Shown here in pieces: positions 2,500 to 23,949 of a stretch of 57,693 nucleotides of DNA. Within the stretch, counting starts at the first letter, position 1. Each line of letters opens with the position of its first letter. The stretch comes from Bacteroidales bacterium (GTDB taxonomy: Bacteria; Bacteroidota; Bacteroidia; Bacteroidales; UBA7960), in the NCBI GenBank assembly GCA_003559855.1, contig PWJZ01000076.1, positions 1 through 57,693 of the forward strand, given 5' to 3'. Both the position numbers and the translations under genes were made by a program. The notes beneath the pieces were generated by a model. The model had not been told where the DNA came from and ran no database searches. It saw nothing but the letters and a program-made list of their open reading frames with translations.

Positions 2500-3462
2500 T
2501 TAAATAAGCCCCTTTTCATGTTTTTCCCTGATAGCTTTAAGCATATCCTGTGTCATGGCATCGAGGTCATAATCGGGTTTCCAGCCCCATTGTTCGCGGG
2601 CGGGTGTATCATCGACCGAGTTTGGCCATGAGTCGGCAATAGCCTGACGTTCATCGGGTTGATATGTCATTTCGAATTCGGGGATATACTTTTTCACGGA
2701 ATCTGCCAATTCTTTTGCACTAAAGCTCATAGCCCCAACATTAAAGTCGCAATGGTGCTTCAGCTTTGAAAAGTCGGCTTGCATAAGGTCTATGGTCGCT
2801 TTAAGGCAGTCGGGCATATACATCATTGGCAGGCGTGTATCTTCGTTGACAAAGCATGTATATTTTTTATTTTTAACAGCTTCGTAGTAAATGGCAACGG
2901 CGTAGTCGGTAGTACCGCCGCCGGGCAATGTTTCGTGGCTGATAATTCCCGGATAGCGCAATCCTCGAACATCAAGGCCGTATTTCTGGACATAATAATC
3001 GCCTAACAGCTCGCCTGAAACCTTAGTTATACCATACATTGTGGTTGGTTTCAGAATAGTTTCCTGTGGTGTGTTGTCAACCGGTGTGGAAGGGCCAAAA
3101 ACAGCTATTGAGCTTGGCACAAGCACCTGTTTCATTTTGAATTCACGCGCTATTTCAAGTACGTTGATCAACCCGTTCATGTTAACGTTCCAGGCTAAAT
3201 TAGGATTTTTTTCTCCCGTGGCAGAAAGTATAGCTGCCATGTTTATGATAATGTCAACGTTATATTTCTTGATCGTGTCTACCAGTTCTTCAACATTCAA
3301 CGCATCAACAACCTCAACGGGTCCTGTATTTGCAATTTTTTCCGATGGCCTGGTTTTCCTTATACCGGCAATAACGTTATCTCCACCATAAATTTCTCTC
3401 AATAAAAGAGTGAATTCCGAGCCGATCTGCCCGGCAGATCCTATTATTAATATTTTTTCCAT
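2500..3462 (-). CDS. tdh: L-threonine 3-dehydrogenase (SDR/epimerase-like type)
   Basis: Oxidises L-threonine with NAD+ to 2-amino-3-oxobutyrate. This is the short-chain dehydrogenase-type enzyme of Bacteroidetes and animals, not the zinc-dependent one. With the start at 3462 (MEKILIIGSAGQIGSEF) it has 320 residues, the NAD-binding G8-x-x-G11-x-x-G14 and the catalytic Tyr143/Lys147 pair in YGITK. The stretch RYPGIISHETLPGGGTTDY is the substrate-loop signature of this family. A longer frame opens at 3528 but would translate through a perfect -7 promoter element at 3508-3515, so the inner ATG is preferred. The divergent kbl gene encodes the next step of the same pathway. Confidence 0.93.
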   Translation of the reverse strand: MEKILIIGSAGQIGSEFTLLLREIYGGDNVIAGIRKTRPSEKIANTGPVEVVDALNVEELVDTIKKYNVDIIINMAAILSATGEKNPNLAWNVNMNGLINVLEIAREFKMKQVLVPSSIAVFGPSTPVDNTPQETILKPTTMYGITKVSGELLGDYYVQKYGLDVRGLRYPGIISHETLPGGGTTDYAVAIYYEAVKNKKYTCFVNEDTRLPMMYMPDCLKATIDLMQADFSKLKHHCDFNVGAMSFSAKELADSVKKYIPEFEMTYQPDERQAIADSWPNSVDDTPAREQWGWKPDYDLDAMTQDMLKAIREKHEKGLI

Positions 3463-3507
3463 TTCTGATAAGTGTTTAAAATTTAAAATATAATAAAATT
3501 TTAAGGG

Positions 3508-3515
3508 CAAAAATA
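3508..3515 (-). promoter_or_regulatory. -7 promoter element for tdh
   Basis: Minus-strand TATTTTTG matches TAnnTTTG, about 46 bases before the chosen tdh start. It supports starting tdh at 3462 rather than 3528. Confidence 0.45.
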
Positions 3516-3553
3516 AACATTTTTGCAAAACCGAAAAAATGAATAGCTGATCC

Positions 3554-3583
3554 TTTACCTGTCAGAAAAAAAATATACCTTTG
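3554..3583 (+). promoter_or_regulatory. Promoter for kbl (-33 TTTA, -7 TACCTTTG)
   Basis: TTTA at 3554-3557 and TACCTTTG at 3576-3583 are 18 bases apart. The -7 element fits the Bacteroidetes consensus. The kbl ATG is at 3662, giving a leader of about 70 bases. It diverges from the tdh promoter about 60 bases away. Confidence 0.55.
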
Positions 3584-3661
3584 CGTGAAATTTTTTTTAA
3601 GCATATCTTTTGTCCAAACATGTTAAACTAAATATATTATTAACTAAATAAAAATAAAATT

Positions 3662-4852
3662 ATGTACGGAAAAATTAAGGAGCATTTACAATCGGAGTTA
3701 AAGGGTATCCGCGAGGCGGGATTATACAAAGAAGAGCGTATCATAATCAGTCCTCAGGGTGCTGAGATAAAAATTTCGACAGGTGAGACTGTTTTGAATT
3801 TTTGTGCAAATAATTATTTGGGCTTATCTAATCATCCCGGTTTGATAGAGGCGGCAAAAGAGGGAATGGATTCTCATGGTTACGGGATGTCATCAGTACG
3901 TTTTATTTGCGGTACACAGGATCTGCATAAGACTTTGGAGAGAAAGGTATCTGAATTTTTCGGCACGGACGACACGATACTTTATGCGGCATGTTTCGAT
4001 GCCAATGGCGGTGCATTTGAACCTATTTTAACCAATGAGGATGCGATCATATCCGATTCTTTGAATCATGCTTCAATAATTGACGGTGTGCGTCTTTGCA
4101 AAGCTCACCGTTACAGGTATAATAATGCTGATATGGAAGATCTGGAGCAAAAGCTCAAGGAAGCCCAGGCTCAGAGATTTCGTGTCATTGTAACCGACGG
4201 GGTTTTTTCTATGGACGGCAATGTTGCGCCGATGGACAAGATCATTGAGCTGGCTGAAAAGTATGATGCACTTGTGATGGTTGATGAAGCTCATTCAGCC
4301 GGTGTTGTTGGTGAAACAGGCAGGGGAGTAACCGAACTATTTAATATTCGCGGTAAAGTGGATATTATTACAGGCACCCTGGGTAAAGCATTTGGAGGTG
4401 CAATAGGCGGGTTTACAACCGGCAGAAAAGAGATAATAGAAATATTGCGGCAGCGTTCACGCCCATATTTGTTCTCAAATTCACTGCCCCCTTCAGTTGC
4501 TAATGCAGGCATCAAAATGTTCGATATGATGACCGAAACTCACGAACTGCAAGATAAGCTGCACAAAAATACCGGTTATTTCATGGAAAAGATGAGGAAC
4601 GCGGGCTTCGATGTAAAACCCACACAATCGGCAATTATAGCTGTAATGCTATATGATGCCAAACTTTCGCAGGATTTCGCTGAAAAACTACTGAAAGAAG
4701 GAATTTATGTTATCGGATTCTATTACCCTGTTGTCCCAAGAGGGCAAGCAAGGATACGTGTACAGGTCTCAGCTGCGCATGAAACAGAACACCTTGATAA
4801 ATGTATTGATGCTTTCAAAAAAGTCGGAAAAGAACTTGGTGTGCTGAAATAA
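3662..4852 (+). CDS. kbl: Glycine C-acetyltransferase (2-amino-3-ketobutyrate CoA ligase)
   Basis: PLP-dependent enzyme that cleaves 2-amino-3-oxobutyrate with CoA to glycine and acetyl-CoA, the second step after tdh. It has 396 residues, the normal family length. The substrate-side signature NFCANNYLGLSNHP is at about 46-59, VMVDEAHSAGVVG at 205-217, and the Schiff-base lysine is Lys242 in GTLGKAFGGAIGG. It is the closest match among the alpha-oxoamine synthases (alternatives are KAS/BioF/HemA types); the divergent tdh gene decides the assignment. Confidence 0.95.
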   Translation: MYGKIKEHLQSELKGIREAGLYKEERIIISPQGAEIKISTGETVLNFCANNYLGLSNHPGLIEAAKEGMDSHGYGMSSVRFICGTQDLHKTLERKVSEFFGTDDTILYAACFDANGGAFEPILTNEDAIISDSLNHASIIDGVRLCKAHRYRYNNADMEDLEQKLKEAQAQRFRVIVTDGVFSMDGNVAPMDKIIELAEKYDALVMVDEAHSAGVVGETGRGVTELFNIRGKVDIITGTLGKAFGGAIGGFTTGRKEIIEILRQRSRPYLFSNSLPPSVANAGIKMFDMMTETHELQDKLHKNTGYFMEKMRNAGFDVKPTQSAIIAVMLYDAKLSQDFAEKLLKEGIYVIGFYYPVVPRGQARIRVQVSAAHETEHLDKCIDAFKKVGKELGVLK

Positions 4853-5731: not shown

Positions 5732-7669
5732 ATGGTAGATGCAATAAAGAGGAGACTAAACGAATCAAGGTTTATCAGGTGGAGTGTATTGATACTGATA
5801 AGTTTTACGATGGCAACGAATTATTATTTTTATGATGCTTTGGCGCCGTTGACCGATCTTTTACGTGTAAATTTAGGTTTTTCTTCGGCTGATTACGGTT
5901 TTATCATGTCGGCTTATGCTATTCCCAATGTATTTTTGGCGATGGCTGTGATAGGAGGTATTATCCTTGACCGCGTGGGGATACGAATTACCGGTTTTTC
6001 TTTTGTTTTCCTGATGAGCCTGGGAGGAGCAATAACTGCTTACGGGGCATCGGATACTTTTCTCAGTGGTGGTTTTGGATACGCTTTTATGGATTCATTT
6101 TTGACCGCTTACTCACCTGCTTTGAAAATGATGTGCCTGGGCTTTTTTATTTTCGGGCTTGGAGCCGAAACCAGCATTATTGTACTTTCGAAAGTTGTAG
6201 TTAAGTGGTTTAAAGGCAAAGAACTTGCCCTGGCGCTTGGGCTTAACCTTTCTATCGGAAGGCTTGGAGCGGCATTAGCCCTGACACTTTCGCCAAGGTT
6301 GGTGCATCCTGAATGGACAACGGCTATATGGTTTGGAGTTTTGCTTTTATGGATAGGGCTTTTGGCTTTCATAATATATATGTTTGTTGACCGTAAGCTT
6401 GACCGTCAGATCAAGATTGATGTGAAAGACCCGGAAGATGAATTCCGCTGGTCTGACTTAAAAGATTTGGTTACCAACAGATCAGTCATTTTCATAACAC
6501 TACTTTGTGTTACTTTTTATTCTGCAGTATTTCCTTTCATAAAGTTTGCACCCGACCTGTTGATGAACAAGTTTGCAATGGCAAGGCATATTGCCGGAGA
6601 TGTAACGGCCTACCTGATGTACGGAACAATTTTACTTACTCCGTTATTCGGGTGGGTTTGCGATTACAAAGGCAAGAGTGCAACTCTTATGTACCTGGGG
6701 TCTGCACTGTTGATCATTGCACATATGATGTTTGCATTAACCCATATTAACCCCAGAATACCTATAGTTTTACTTGGTATTGCGTTTTCACTTGTACCTG
6801 CGGCAATGTGGCCGGCAGTAGCAAAAATTGTCAGGGAAAGCAAACTGGGTACAGCCTATGGGTTTATGTTCACCATACAGAATGTCGGTCTTATGGCTTT
6901 CCCTATTGTTATCGGTTTGGTGGTAGATGCTTCCAATCCTTACTACCGTACACCAGTTTATGCAGAAGAATATAAGATTGTGCAGGAGCAGCAGATGAGT
7001 TTTTCCGGAAAATACATAGATCGCAGAGACCAACCTGTTGCAAACGAAGAAATAAATGTTACTGCTGTTGTATTCAAAGATAGTTTAAGCGGTGAGATTG
7101 TCTGGAATGAAACCCATACGGTAATGACCGATGAAAAGGGCAATTATGAACTGGAAATTGGCAGAGGAGATATAATTGAAAGAGTTGATTTCTCCCAAAT
7201 TGTTGATACGATAAAATACAGGGCGAAAGTTTCAATATTCGACGGTGATGATATTGTAGAGGTTTATAATAACCAATTAATCTATGATGAGCATCTGCAT
7301 TTCGTTTCCATGATGGATAAAAAACATGAAGCGTATTTTGACGGCAGAAACAGGGGCTCTCTTAAGATTTATGATCCTGAAAATGACAAGAAGGTTTGGG
7401 AGGAACGAATAAGGTTTTATGTTGATGATGAAGGTGAATTCGATATATTACTTGGCTATGGCAGATTGCAATATGCTGATCGTGATTATTTCGGCCTGAA
7501 TTTCAGAGAACACGAAGCAGAGATCATCAAACCGCTTGATTATACTAATCCAATGCTTGTATTTGCAGCTTTGGGACTTTTCGGGCTGGTATTTGCGTTC
7601 CTTTTGAGGAGAGAGGATAAAACATCAGGATATGGGCTTGAATTGCCAAACAAGGATATGGAATCCTGA
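5732..7669 (+). CDS. MFS transporter with a large periplasmic insertion before the last helix
   Basis: Inner-membrane secondary transporter of 645 residues, against about 400-450 for a standard member. Twelve hydrophobic helices can be placed. The first is near 17-40, the eleventh is at about 373-400 and the last at 607-626. The loop after helix 2 has the family pattern GIILDRVGIR. Between helices 11 and 12 lies a soluble stretch of about 205 residues (401-606; DNA about 6932-7549), which should face the periplasm. Part of it (FSGKYIDRRDQPVANEEI, then TDEKGNYELEIG) looks like a transthyretin/carboxypeptidase-regulatory beta fold, with possibly a second copy near 540-580. The substrate is unknown. 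Frame and codon use continue through the insertion, so it is not an assembly artefact of two genes. Confidence 0.85.
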   Translation: MVDAIKRRLNESRFIRWSVLILISFTMATNYYFYDALAPLTDLLRVNLGFSSADYGFIMSAYAIPNVFLAMAVIGGIILDRVGIRITGFSFVFLMSLGGAITAYGASDTFLSGGFGYAFMDSFLTAYSPALKMMCLGFFIFGLGAETSIIVLSKVVVKWFKGKELALALGLNLSIGRLGAALALTLSPRLVHPEWTTAIWFGVLLLWIGLLAFIIYMFVDRKLDRQIKIDVKDPEDEFRWSDLKDLVTNRSVIFITLLCVTFYSAVFPFIKFAPDLLMNKFAMARHIAGDVTAYLMYGTILLTPLFGWVCDYKGKSATLMYLGSALLIIAHMMFALTHINPRIPIVLLGIAFSLVPAAMWPAVAKIVRESKLGTAYGFMFTIQNVGLMAFPIVIGLVVDASNPYYRTPVYAEEYKIVQEQQMSFSGKYIDRRDQPVANEEINVTAVVFKDSLSGEIVWNETHTVMTDEKGNYELEIGRGDIIERVDFSQIVDTIKYRAKVSIFDGDDIVEVYNNQLIYDEHLHFVSMMDKKHEAYFDGRNRGSLKIYDPENDKKVWEERIRFYVDDEGEFDILLGYGRLQYADRDYFGLNFREHEAEIIKPLDYTNPMLVFAALGLFGLVFAFLLRREDKTSGYGLELPNKDMES

Positions 7670-20787: not shown

Positions 20788-23700
20788 TTAACGGACGATC
20801 TGAACACGTTTGGTTTTTATACTGTTGGTAGTGTGAACCTGCATAAAATATACTCCCTTGCTTATGTTGCTTACATTAATTTCATAGCGTGGTGCATCAA
20901 CAGTTATATTTTTGATTACCTGTCCACTAATGTTTATTAATCTTATTTGTTCGATCATTTCGCCGGATACAACGGTAAATTTGTCGCGTGCCGGATTGGG
21001 AAATACCGATAGTTTTGCTTTATCAGGCATATCAGCGTGGGTTTCGACTATCACTACTTCTATATCAACATCGCTTTCTACCGCAACCTCATCCCCTGCT
21101 GTTATAAATCCTTCCTTTTCAACCATGTATTCATACGTTCCGGCTTTTACATTTTCAATAACATATTCGCCCGGATCGTAGGTTTCACCATCGAAGGTGA
21201 TGACGGCATTTTCAATTTCGTTACCTTCTTTATCCATAATTTCAAAGGTCACAGTATAAATCTTTATCATTGTAACATCTACGGTAATATCATCATCAAC
21301 CATAATCTCATCTTCAATGGTACTGAAACCCTCTTTTTCCACCATGTATTCATATTCTCCTTCCTCTACATCTTCAATCACATATTCACCCGGATCGTAA
21401 GTTTCGCCATCGAAAGTGATAATGGCATTTTCAATATCATTGCCTTCTTCATCCATGATTGCAAATGTAACGACATGTGCTTTTATCATTGTAACGTCAA
21501 CGGTAATGTCCTTATCAACGGTAATTTCATCTTCAACCGTAAAGAACCCGTCTTTTTCCACTGTATATTCATATGTTCCCTCTTCCACATCTTCAATCAC
21601 ATATTCACCCGGATCGTAAGTTTCGCCATCGAAAGTAATAATGGCATTTTCAATATCATTGCCTTCTTCATCCATGATTGCAAATGTAACGACATGTGTT
21701 TTTATCATTGTAACGCCAACGGTAATGTCCTTATCAACGGTAATTTCATCTTCAACCGTAAAGAACCCGTCTTTTTCCACTGTATATTCATATGTTCCCT
21801 CTTCCAAATCTTCAATCACATATTCACCCGGATCGTAAGTTTCGCCATCGAAAGTGATAATGGCATTTTCAATATCGTTGCCATCTTCATCTTCAATTTC
21901 AAAGGTAACGGTATATCCTGCATAAATTTCAATATTATCATTAATATAGGTTGCTTTATTAAAACCGGTAATAGCGAGTGTCATAATTCCTGCATCTTTG
22001 AGTGGTTCATCGAAGATGATTTCTGCTGTGCCGTTTTCGGCAACGGCTGTACCAAGAATTATTACTTCATCATTTTCGTCGAATATTGTTAGCGCTGCAG
22101 TTGCTCCATCGTCAATAGATGTTACCGTGAATGACTGGTCGCCTGTTGAAGCTTCGGGCGGGTGTTCCGGTTCAAAAGGTGTCGGCACGTCGGTTCTTAC
22201 CATAAGTGTCGGGTCACCGAACAACACCCATGTTTCATGGGTTCGGATACCCTGACCACCATATTGAGGTATCATAAACATACTGCCATTTGTGGATACT
22301 CCTCCGTATGTTCTTTTTATCGTGCTGCCATGTGCAATGCTTTCTTCCGTAAGGATGCTTACCATTTCGTCCTGTCCGCACATAGGTGGTTGCCATGGCT
22401 GGTTAATGGTGGATCCCATAAAACCGATGGCACCTGTGGGTTCACCACCGTGTGTTGCACGCAGCCAGGATTCTGCAAAACAAAATTTACCGACAAAATC
22501 ACCATTTACACAGGCTACCGAGACGATATATGGCATTTTGCCTATGTTGGTAAGCTGATTCACATGATAAATACTATAGTTGGCAACACTCCATCCGCTG
22601 ACAGAACCGTGGTTGCAAAAGTTAATGGTAGAGACACCGTTATTGATATGCCCTGAAATTATTGCGGCGGAAGTGCTGTATCCGGGCCCGTCATAACAGC
22701 TGTGAACTTCGTCGTAAGTAAAGTTAAGCAGGGTATCCCTGATAAAGTTCATGTGCTGAATGTCGGATTCCCCATGGTGCCCCATACCGGCGCCTTCATT
22801 GCGTGCAATACCCAGGCCTGTATTTACCCATGTATCGGTCTCGTCAAGGTCTCTTTCATATTCTATCATGCGTTGTACCTGTGTTTCGACATGAGCAACG
22901 GTTTCAGCGGAAAAACGACCGACGAAGATATCGTTATACATTCCTGACAGTATCGCGTAAGCATTGTCAGAATAATCGCCGTAAGAGCCTATTCCCGCAG
23001 GTATTTGATTTGGTGCATCACCAATAAGAAGCAAGTAAGCAAAATCTTCGTTTTCATTGTAGTATTCCTCTACATAATTTTTGATTTCCCCAAATGTGTT
23101 TCCTGCTTCCGACCTGGGCACTATCTCGGTTTTTCTGCCGACAGTTCGCTTCCAGTCAACAAAAGGCTTCATTGGTTCCATAAAATCGTCGTAGCAGATT
23201 ATCAGCAGGCTGCCTTCTTCGCCTTCAAGCATCGGGTAGCTTCTTTCGGCAGCTTCCATGTTAAGGAAGAAACGTTCATAGATCCTTCCGAATTCAGGCT
23301 CTACAACAATCTCGTCGCGTCTGCGTATCAGGGGATCTTCACCCATCTTTCCCGTGGAGGTAACCTCAACCTCTATGTCGGTATATACCCTGAGGATATT
23401 GCTCACGGGGTTGTAATGAAACGTGAAGATCGTAACGGTTTGACCGCGGAAATCCCTCATGATGAAGGGCTCTTCAAGCTGTGCGAGTTTGCCCGGCCAG
23501 AAAGCATCTTTCTCGTAAACCTCACCGTAGGTAAAGGGTACGTCATCAGGATTAATGCTCCTGTCGAAATGCCCCTTCGAAGGCGCTACCTCAATGCCGG
23601 TAAATTCCCTGTATTCATAGCCGGTAACGTTTACTTCCATATCATCCATATCGGGAATTATAATGGTTGTAACCAGTTTTGCCAGGTCAGGTTTGCCTTT

Positions 23701-23949
23701 TTCCATTATTCGCACACCTTCCCCCACGGTTATCACCATCTGGGTTCCGCGCGGGGTTTCCAAAGGTGTTTCCTTGTACCCATCAAGCGAGAATTGAATC
23801 TGTGTTTGCTCTATGTCGCTCTGAACAAGCTTTACATCTGCAGGAGCCTGCTCGTGGCCGTTAATACCTGCCCAGTTGTACCGGGCACCGGCGGTGAAAA
23901 AAAACATCCCCGCCATAAAAAAAATTAGTAAATAAACAGTTCGTTTCAT
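20788..23949 (-). CDS. Secreted gingipain-like C25 cysteine peptidase with four tandem repeats and T9SS sorting domain
   Basis: 1053 residues. Signal peptide (1-21), long propeptide, then the caspase-like C25 domain. His447 (FCNHGSVSGW) and Cys480 (VACVNGDF) form the catalytic pair, 33 residues apart as in gingipain R. After a beta-rich Ig-like stretch come four tandem 73-residue repeats (DNA about 21034-21909), then a type A T9SS C-terminal signal (LSVFPNPARDKF to KGVYFMQVHTTN). It should be exported through the T9SS core encoded downstream. The repeats make it unlike PorU, the C25-family T9SS sortase. Substrate is unknown. A second, longer paralogue lies 400 bases upstream. Confidence 0.92.
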   Translation of the reverse strand: MKRTVYLLIFFMAGMFFFTAGARYNWAGINGHEQAPADVKLVQSDIEQTQIQFSLDGYKETPLETPRGTQMVITVGEGVRIMEKGKPDLAKLVTTIIIPDMDDMEVNVTGYEYREFTGIEVAPSKGHFDRSINPDDVPFTYGEVYEKDAFWPGKLAQLEEPFIMRDFRGQTVTIFTFHYNPVSNILRVYTDIEVEVTSTGKMGEDPLIRRRDEIVVEPEFGRIYERFFLNMEAAERSYPMLEGEEGSLLIICYDDFMEPMKPFVDWKRTVGRKTEIVPRSEAGNTFGEIKNYVEEYYNENEDFAYLLLIGDAPNQIPAGIGSYGDYSDNAYAILSGMYNDIFVGRFSAETVAHVETQVQRMIEYERDLDETDTWVNTGLGIARNEGAGMGHHGESDIQHMNFIRDTLLNFTYDEVHSCYDGPGYSTSAAIISGHINNGVSTINFCNHGSVSGWSVANYSIYHVNQLTNIGKMPYIVSVACVNGDFVGKFCFAESWLRATHGGEPTGAIGFMGSTINQPWQPPMCGQDEMVSILTEESIAHGSTIKRTYGGVSTNGSMFMIPQYGGQGIRTHETWVLFGDPTLMVRTDVPTPFEPEHPPEASTGDQSFTVTSIDDGATAALTIFDENDEVIILGTAVAENGTAEIIFDEPLKDAGIMTLAITGFNKATYINDNIEIYAGYTVTFEIEDEDGNDIENAIITFDGETYDPGEYVIEDLEEGTYEYTVEKDGFFTVEDEITVDKDITVGVTMIKTHVVTFAIMDEEGNDIENAIITFDGETYDPGEYVIEDVEEGTYEYTVEKDGFFTVEDEITVDKDITVDVTMIKAHVVTFAIMDEEGNDIENAIITFDGETYDPGEYVIEDVEEGEYEYMVEKEGFSTIEDEIMVDDDITVDVTMIKIYTVTFEIMDKEGNEIENAVITFDGETYDPGEYVIENVKAGTYEYMVEKEGFITAGDEVAVESDVDIEVVIVETHADMPDKAKLSVFPNPARDKFTVVSGEMIEQIRLINISGQVIKNITVDAPRYEINVSNISKGVYFMQVHTTNSIKTKRVQIVR
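21034..21909 (-). repeat. Four 219-bp in-frame tandem repeats
   Basis: The marker CCGGATCGTA recurs at 21171, 21390, 21609 and 21828, exactly 219 bases apart. Each unit encodes a small domain with TFDGETYDPGEYVIE. Two neighbouring central units differ at only a few bases; the outer ones are more diverged. Confidence 0.9.

Follow-up and report, generated by a model that had tools for sequence, protein, structure and literature searches.

An MFSD1-like transporter of a Bacteroidales bacterium with two tandem beta-domains in the loop between TM11 and TM12

An MFS transporter encoded in the window, i.e., the whole stretch of 57,693 nucleotides analyzed here, was found to combine an MFSD1-like core with an insert of two tandem beta-domains in front of its last membrane helix (5732 to 7669, plus strand; 645 amino acids according to the ORF list and translation). 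The relationship to MFSD1, the conservation of the substrate site, the linkage to dipeptidase genes, the two-repeat nature of the insert, its insertion point, and its replaceability were established by computation. By analogy to GLMP or the PepT proteins, we consider it on balance probable that the protein imports dipeptides and carries, in cis, an accessory module that would serve as a shield or for docking. In the openly licensed PMC literature, we recognized no paper on a bacterial MFSD1 or on this insertion.

Architecture of the transporter

A sequence search against all PDB chains returned only one match at an E value of ≤1, namely, chain A of 8r8q (MFSD1; residues 16 to 401, E = 9.2e-44), with 34% identity (122 of 362 aligned residues). 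The core of the window transporter is thus MFSD1-like. The earlier note had correctly described an MFS core but missed both this likeness and the fact that, in animals, GLMP docks at the loop that is interrupted here. Among the best 50 structural matches listed for the full model, 8r8q was absent. MFS_1 (PF07690; residues 24 to 391, E = 2.3e-29) was the sole Pfam family above the cutoff, so that the PTR2 family did not reach it, and no significant family was seen in the remainder of the protein. Together with the PDB match and the helices of the model, it delimits TM1 to TM11 (residues 1 to 401; 5732 to 6934, like all features below on the plus strand). TM12 (residues 605 to 632; 7544 to 7627) was assigned from the model and follows a short loop in insert-free relatives. 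The insert between TM11 and TM12 (residues 404 to 602; 6941 to 7537) was delimited by loop lengths, models, and hydropathy and charge.

From 50 aligned sequences that were hand-picked among the fetched loci (38 with the insert and 12 without), AlphaFold2 modeled the full protein with a pLDDT of 89.3 and a pTM of 0.87, with the end of TM11 at residue 401, strands throughout residues 406 to 599, and TM12 at residues 605 to 632. Modeled by itself, the insert reached a pLDDT of 96.4 and a pTM of 0.88. An extra membrane helix in the insert can be discounted, since its top 19-residue hydropathy is only 0.67. Lysine and arginine residues number 24 in the assumed cytoplasmic loops versus 5 in the assumed periplasmic loops (insert not counted), and the insert is therefore placed on the periplasmic side. 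Both the model and the charge bias agree with a 12-TM MFS fold with cytoplasmic ends, as in MFSD1. The earlier note had proposed a 12-helix MFS core broken before its last helix by a soluble, beta-rich, and, by topology, periplasmic stretch at 6932 to 7549. This picture was borne out, with the span correct to within 4 residues at either end, and the structure prediction suggested there as a check yielded a confidently modeled soluble domain and no additional membrane helices.

Close relatives without the insert align in frame to residues 1 to 403 and then to residues 603 to 641, and their TM11-TM12 loop comprises about 22 residues versus 207 in the window protein. Loop lengths are bimodal in the set of 92 rows used for tree building, from which 8 rows (truncated or with insertions elsewhere) had been dropped beforehand: the loop exceeds 150 amino acids in 42 rows, measures 14 to 68 amino acids in 48, and is intermediate in 2. 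The loop of 68 amino acids in this set belongs to a gene cut by a contig end (L097).

Substrate site and linkage to dipeptidase genes

In lysosomes, MFSD1 and its subunit GLMP act as a uniporter for dipeptides (PMC11252000), an activity shown only in 2024 (PMC11252000, PMC10990142), and its residues D60, E150, and R181 were termed critical after mutation (PMC11252000). For comparison, a site of 14 MFSD1 residues was used (Y56, Y59, D60, E150, Q176, R181, Y276, F280, Y365, W373, Q393, Q396, N397, and L400), consisting of the 13 on the list in PMC11252000 plus D60. The window protein is identical at 11 of the 14 (P = 6e-4, given 122/362 overall), and Q176, Y365, and Q393 are replaced by N, F, and F, respectively. 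Across the 50 aligned sequences, 56 of the 386 positions in the core are invariant, and these comprise 9 of the 14 site positions, including D35, E146, and R177 (P = 1.8e-5). The TM1 residues Y31, Y34, and D35 (MFSD1 Y56, Y59, and D60; 5822 to 5836) were mapped by alignment, and Y31 as well as D35 is unchanged in all 50 sequences. By alignment and conservation, E146 (MFSD1 E150; 6167 to 6169) and R177 (MFSD1 R181; 6260 to 6262) are proposed to contact the N terminus and the C terminus of the dipeptide, respectively. Position 172 (MFSD1 Q176) is variable among relatives.

Genes for a beta-Ala-His dipeptidase (TIGR01893) lie close to MFSD1-like genes in a number of genomes. The matches listed allowed a comparison in 86 genomes: the two genes are no more than 700 bp apart in 18 of them (16 with both genes on the same strand) and no more than 6 kb apart in 22, with a chance expectation of about 0.2 genomes within 1.5 kb according to a rough length calculation. 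The 86 genomes are those shared by the 150 listed matches each of the MFSD1-like and the dipeptidase searches, both of which covered one set of 295 genomes from the order. A dipeptidase gene (625 bits to TIGR01893) also adjoins an insert-bearing tandem pair (L125) and is found near another insert-bearing gene (L094). In all of the 18 dipeptidase-linked loci that were fetched (17 of the 18 above plus one further, insert-bearing locus, G077), residues E146, R177, Y263, F267, F352, W360, F380, Q383, N384, and L387 are kept. The beta-module is present in one of them (G077), and the TM11-TM12 loop measures 14 to 21 amino acids in 11 loci, 68 in 2, and 120 to 123 in 4. This genomic context supports dipeptides as the substrate, although the reading is weakened because most dipeptidase-linked genes lack the module and because the dipeptidase gene of the window genome itself, at G000:C20, is not adjacent to the transporter gene.

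Position 35 is D in 13 of these 18 loci and E or Y in 5, which speaks against full substrate identity in that subgroup, hinting at altered substrate choice or coupling there. The equivalent of MFSD1 D60 is Tyr in L182, L183, and L185 (568 to 572 amino acids) and Glu in L180 and L181. MFS substrates can change within families, and the window protein could be MFSD1-like by descent while carrying an amino-acid derivative or another small anion. We regard this as unlikely. It would agree with the variability of position 172 and with the IorA and GcvP genes near close loci, which are consistent with several related substrates, but the nine invariant site positions and the dipeptidase linkage argue against it.

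In close relatives, IorA and GcvP are encoded downstream of the transporter. Upstream of it in the window (2500 to 4852) lie what we take, from the translation, to be genes for a threonine dehydrogenase-like protein and a 2-amino-3-ketobutyrate CoA ligase-like protein, which together with IorA and GcvP in the relatives would suit amino-acid fermentation. As a dipeptide importer, the carrier would act as an inner-membrane facilitator that presumably moves dipeptides from the periplasm to the cytoplasm, where cytoplasmic dipeptidases would pull the flux inward.

Origin and distribution of the insert

Comparison with hhalign divided the insert into repeat 1 (residues 404 to 515; 6941 to 7276) and repeat 2, a diverged tandem copy (residues 516 to 602; 7277 to 7537). 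The insert is a tandem duplication, because the profiles of the two repeats match at 98.7% (E = 1.6e-16); the duplication is visible by profiles only, as BLAST of the window's repeat 1 against its repeat 2 gave no match. In secreted proteins of this order, namely, FISUMP, fiber, and related proteins, the N-terminal domain is homologous to repeat 1 (hhalign, 98.4%, E = 5.3e-15) and also matched repeat 2, at 91% (E = 1.1e-6). Control values were 0.2 to 0.3% for reversed alignments and 0.1% when these domains were compared with the MFS core. Seven proteins entered this comparison: Fib_succ_major is present in five, YadA-head plus S74 in one, and FlgD_ig in one. The family NF053851 (Bdello_MAT_N) matched near the N terminus of the read frame in all seven. 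NF053851 was also matched by 27 of 38 inserts at an E value of ≤0.01. For the window insert, the match (26.8 bits, E = 3.8e-6, positions 13 to 76 of 162) lies below the curated cutoff of 60 bits, so the insert is a relative of this family and not a member. The insert was thus recruited from a secreted-protein domain family, with the origin of repeat 1 traced by computation. FISUMP and Bdellovibrio MAT-type proteins share the homology of their N-terminal domain with repeat 1 but are themselves secreted or located at the surface and lack an MFS core. The earlier note had rightly seen a beta-rich soluble insert of a kind that many secreted proteins of Bacteroidota contain, to which the homology of repeat 1 to the N-terminal domain of FISUMP and S74/YadA-type fibers conforms, but not that a domain of such proteins is present as a tandem duplication. 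A second copy of a repeat-1-like domain occurs in the window's genome (G000:C97:44083-44289, in an ORF of 181 amino acids).

The same note had likened the insert to transthyretin/carboxypeptidase-regulatory folds, an assignment that was rejected at the sequence level. The TTR-52 family reached 13.1 bits against a cutoff of 24.9, the window insert had no Pfam match at an E value of ≤0.01, and CarbopepD_reg_2 matched only 1 of the 38 members (E = 0.0087). Foldseek with the insert model likewise gave no match at an E value of ≤0.001 in PDB or BFVD. The top VIA-align match was an FMN-binding split barrel (Z = 6.3, rmsd of 3.3 over 95 residues, insert residues 85 to 182), and a further one was macroglobulin domain 4 of complement C5 (Z = 4.7, rmsd of 3.5 over 78 residues spanning insert residues 11 to 202). 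We give the fold no name because both matches are below the level that the tool calls common. From the VIA-align ranges alone, one may guess that each domain is completed by the final strand of the other repeat. PHROGs yielded only a family labeled unknown (0.028). Nearly invariant positions in the insert are few, mostly Gly, Pro, Trp, and Glu, and are read as structural.

The full two-repeat insert was found at 17 places in 16 of the 295 order genomes, not counting a further gene that is truncated at a contig end. Misassembly, a possibility that the earlier note had considered, is excluded because the insert recurs across these genomes, one of which (G234) is a single contig of 4.8 Mb; the architecture also occurs in MAGs of several projects. 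An assembly or annotation artifact is accordingly so improbable as to be negligible. In a phylum sample of 296 genomes, 55 had a match, with the full insert only in the window's own genome and partial matches in the other 54.

Mean identity to the window in 37 insert-bearing relatives is 36% for repeat 1, 41% for repeat 2, and 76% for the core; judged from these values, the core changes far more slowly than the module. The two-repeat module is in frame in 38 of 38 aligned relatives, down to about 16 to 20% identity, and profile comparison found the inserts of different clades to be homologous over their full length (99.1 to 100%). Insert-bearing genes do not form one clade on the tree of core columns (p-AU = 7.7e-49, 54-row subset). 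The clade tests used 54 to 55 of the 92 rows, leaving out distant outgroups and near-identical rows, and the 55-row test had the same outcome when repeated on 54 rows without the contig-end gene L097, which had been scored as insert-free. On a quick tree of all 92 rows, the insert must have been gained or lost 7 times, and well-supported branches force no fewer than 4 of these changes.

Insert-bearing and insert-free copies lie side by side in several genomes (L121, L122, L124, and L093), and the insert-free genes of L041/L042 and L037 share gene neighborhoods with insert-bearing genes. In a tree of two neighboring proteins (27 rows), L041/L042 and L037 nest in two different insert-bearing groups, whereas the transporter tree groups all three with other insert-free genes. 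Due to this discord, the two forms are taken to have replaced each other in place, either because different members of a tandem pair were lost in different lineages or through exchange.

Other MFSD1-like genes (L180 to L185, L128, and L129) carry different insertions of 68 to about 140 amino acids in the same TM11-TM12 loop, some of them helical-looking and several beside a dipeptidase gene. The loop is thus a repeated insertion site. If it simply tolerates insertions, the module might have accreted neutrally, without a selected function. Such an origin would be compatible with the insertions of other kinds in relatives (68 amino acids in 2 and 120 to 123 in 4 of the 18 dipeptidase-linked loci, besides L128 and L129), the fast divergence of the module, and the lack of a single insert-bearing clade. 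It nevertheless appears quite improbable, as the module has stayed in frame in all 38 relatives despite this divergence and its homology between clades extends from end to end.

Some MFSD1-like paralogues were seen to have a TM7-TM8 loop that is longer by about 70 residues (L123:4783-6438, L125:6559-8346, L126:4051-5988, and L127:159-2381). Judged by eye, these residues possibly form two more membrane helices, which would make the proteins 14-TM carriers. Those in L123 and L125 adjoin another MFSD1-like gene.

Possible role of the insert

GLMP has a luminal domain that is a beta-sandwich and a TM helix next to the C-domain of MFSD1, and its Arg292 lies within hydrogen-bonding distance of MFSD1 Tyr416 (PMC11252000). 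A change of Arg292 alone still rescued MFSD1, while a change of Asp256 abolished rescue (PMC11252000). By extrapolation, Tyr416 corresponds to about residue 403 of the window protein, two residues past the aligned block (MFSD1 414 = window 401). This position adjoins the start of the insert, so the module starts where the animal partner docks. MFSD1 resembles the window protein in its sequence, its dipeptide site, its 12-TM MFS fold, and in that the lumen is the equivalent of the periplasm, but its chain of 506 residues has no room for a 200-residue insertion between TM11 and TM12, and it relies on GLMP as a separate subunit. Likewise, both GLMP and the insert provide an extracytoplasmic beta-module, that of GLMP beside the C-domain and in contact with Tyr416, but GLMP is a separate one-TM protein, whereas the insert consists of two tandem repeats fused in cis. 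Comparison of the insert with GLMP/NCU-G1 gave no Pfam match at an E value of ≤1 and no GLMP chain by profile at an E value of ≤10, and GLMP was not among the structural matches listed for the insert model. The GLMP family PF15065 was found in 0 of 20 genomes of relatives, yet also in 0 of 14 control genomes.

In PepT1 and PepT2, the extracellular domain is located in the TM9-TM10 loop. The insertion site thus differs between POT/PTR2 proteins and the window protein, with its insert between TM11 and TM12. The two tandem Ig-like domains of PepT1/PepT2 are dispensable for the transport kinetics of PepT2 and bind trypsin, and in 2015 the proteins were called the first MFS transporters in which a folded domain interrupts the core (PMC4597091). 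The window protein adds to this rare class. It resembles PepT1/PepT2, where the two domains are beta-sandwiches, in having two tandem beta-domains within a putative MFS peptide transporter, but PepT1/PepT2 belong to the POT family, and no homology of their Ig-like domains to the insert is claimed.

A cis-acting accessory role is favored because of these parallels to GLMP and PepT1/PepT2. The two tandem beta-domains in the TM11-TM12 loop would act as a periplasmic accessory module, presumably situated next to the C-terminal helix bundle on its periplasmic side, like GLMP on MFSD1. It would shield, stabilize, or dock the carrier rather than form part of the substrate path. The low identity of the module and the occurrence of insert-free genes at the same locus argue against a role in the transport step; the rapid divergence could reflect a partner-specific or a neutral role. 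For GLMP, the two papers of 2024 assign a role in guarding MFSD1 against degradation (PMC11252000, PMC10990142), and one group concluded that it has this protective function and that transport does not require it (PMC10990142).

Alternatively, the module might bind a periplasmic protease or peptidase and so concentrate dipeptides at the carrier. We rate this, too, as rather unlikely, even though the tandem domains of PepT1/PepT2 with trypsin are the closest functional parallel and repeat 1 is in the domain family of adhesive fiber proteins, for the N-domain of which binding to an element of the cell surface has been suggested (PMC10769870). Conservation of the module is poor, and we saw no conserved neighboring gene for a secreted peptidase specific to insert-bearing genes; an M23 endopeptidase gene lies near many loci but also near the insert-free L037, L041, and L042. 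The chances are lower still that the module fixes the carrier in the envelope by contacting an outer-membrane protein, a lipoprotein, or peptidoglycan. The earlier note had pointed in this direction, besides suggesting that the domain could capture substrate, and the domain family of fiber and secreted proteins would fit, but the flanks compared contain no co-conserved partner gene, and the few nearly invariant positions are read as structural.

The charge of the window insert is -16.7, and 36 of 38 inserts are negative. An acidic funnel for cationic dipeptides was not supported as a general mechanism, since six FISUMP/fiber relatives are equally or more acidic per residue and two of the five inserts of L099 to L103 are positive.

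A bolder, tentative proposal is that MFS dipeptide carriers have gained an extracytoplasmic beta-module independently at least three times, i.e., as GLMP in trans, in PepT1/PepT2, and here as a cis-fused tandem module of the fiber type that would do the job of GLMP at the loop at which GLMP docks. If true, lineages swapping forms with and without the module at one locus would represent a natural deletion series for accessory-subunit function, which animals allow only in trans and which would become open to study in bacteria. For asking how the luminal module of GLMP protects MFSD1, and what modules of this sort do, the bacterial single-chain forms with and without the module offer tractable test proteins.

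Two further observations were made on neighboring genes. A conserved SPOR-domain lipoprotein of about 160 amino acids is encoded directly upstream of insert-free MFSD1-like genes (L035, L038 to L040, L046 to L049, L123, and others; 11 members, e.g., L039:5308-5802). It was rejected as a separate accessory gene of insert-free loci, its SPOR domain not being a beta-module of the insert kind. In the window itself, an ORF of 1,053 amino acids (20791 to 23949) has -0.118 charges per residue and is the most acidic of the 31 window ORFs of at least 200 amino acids.
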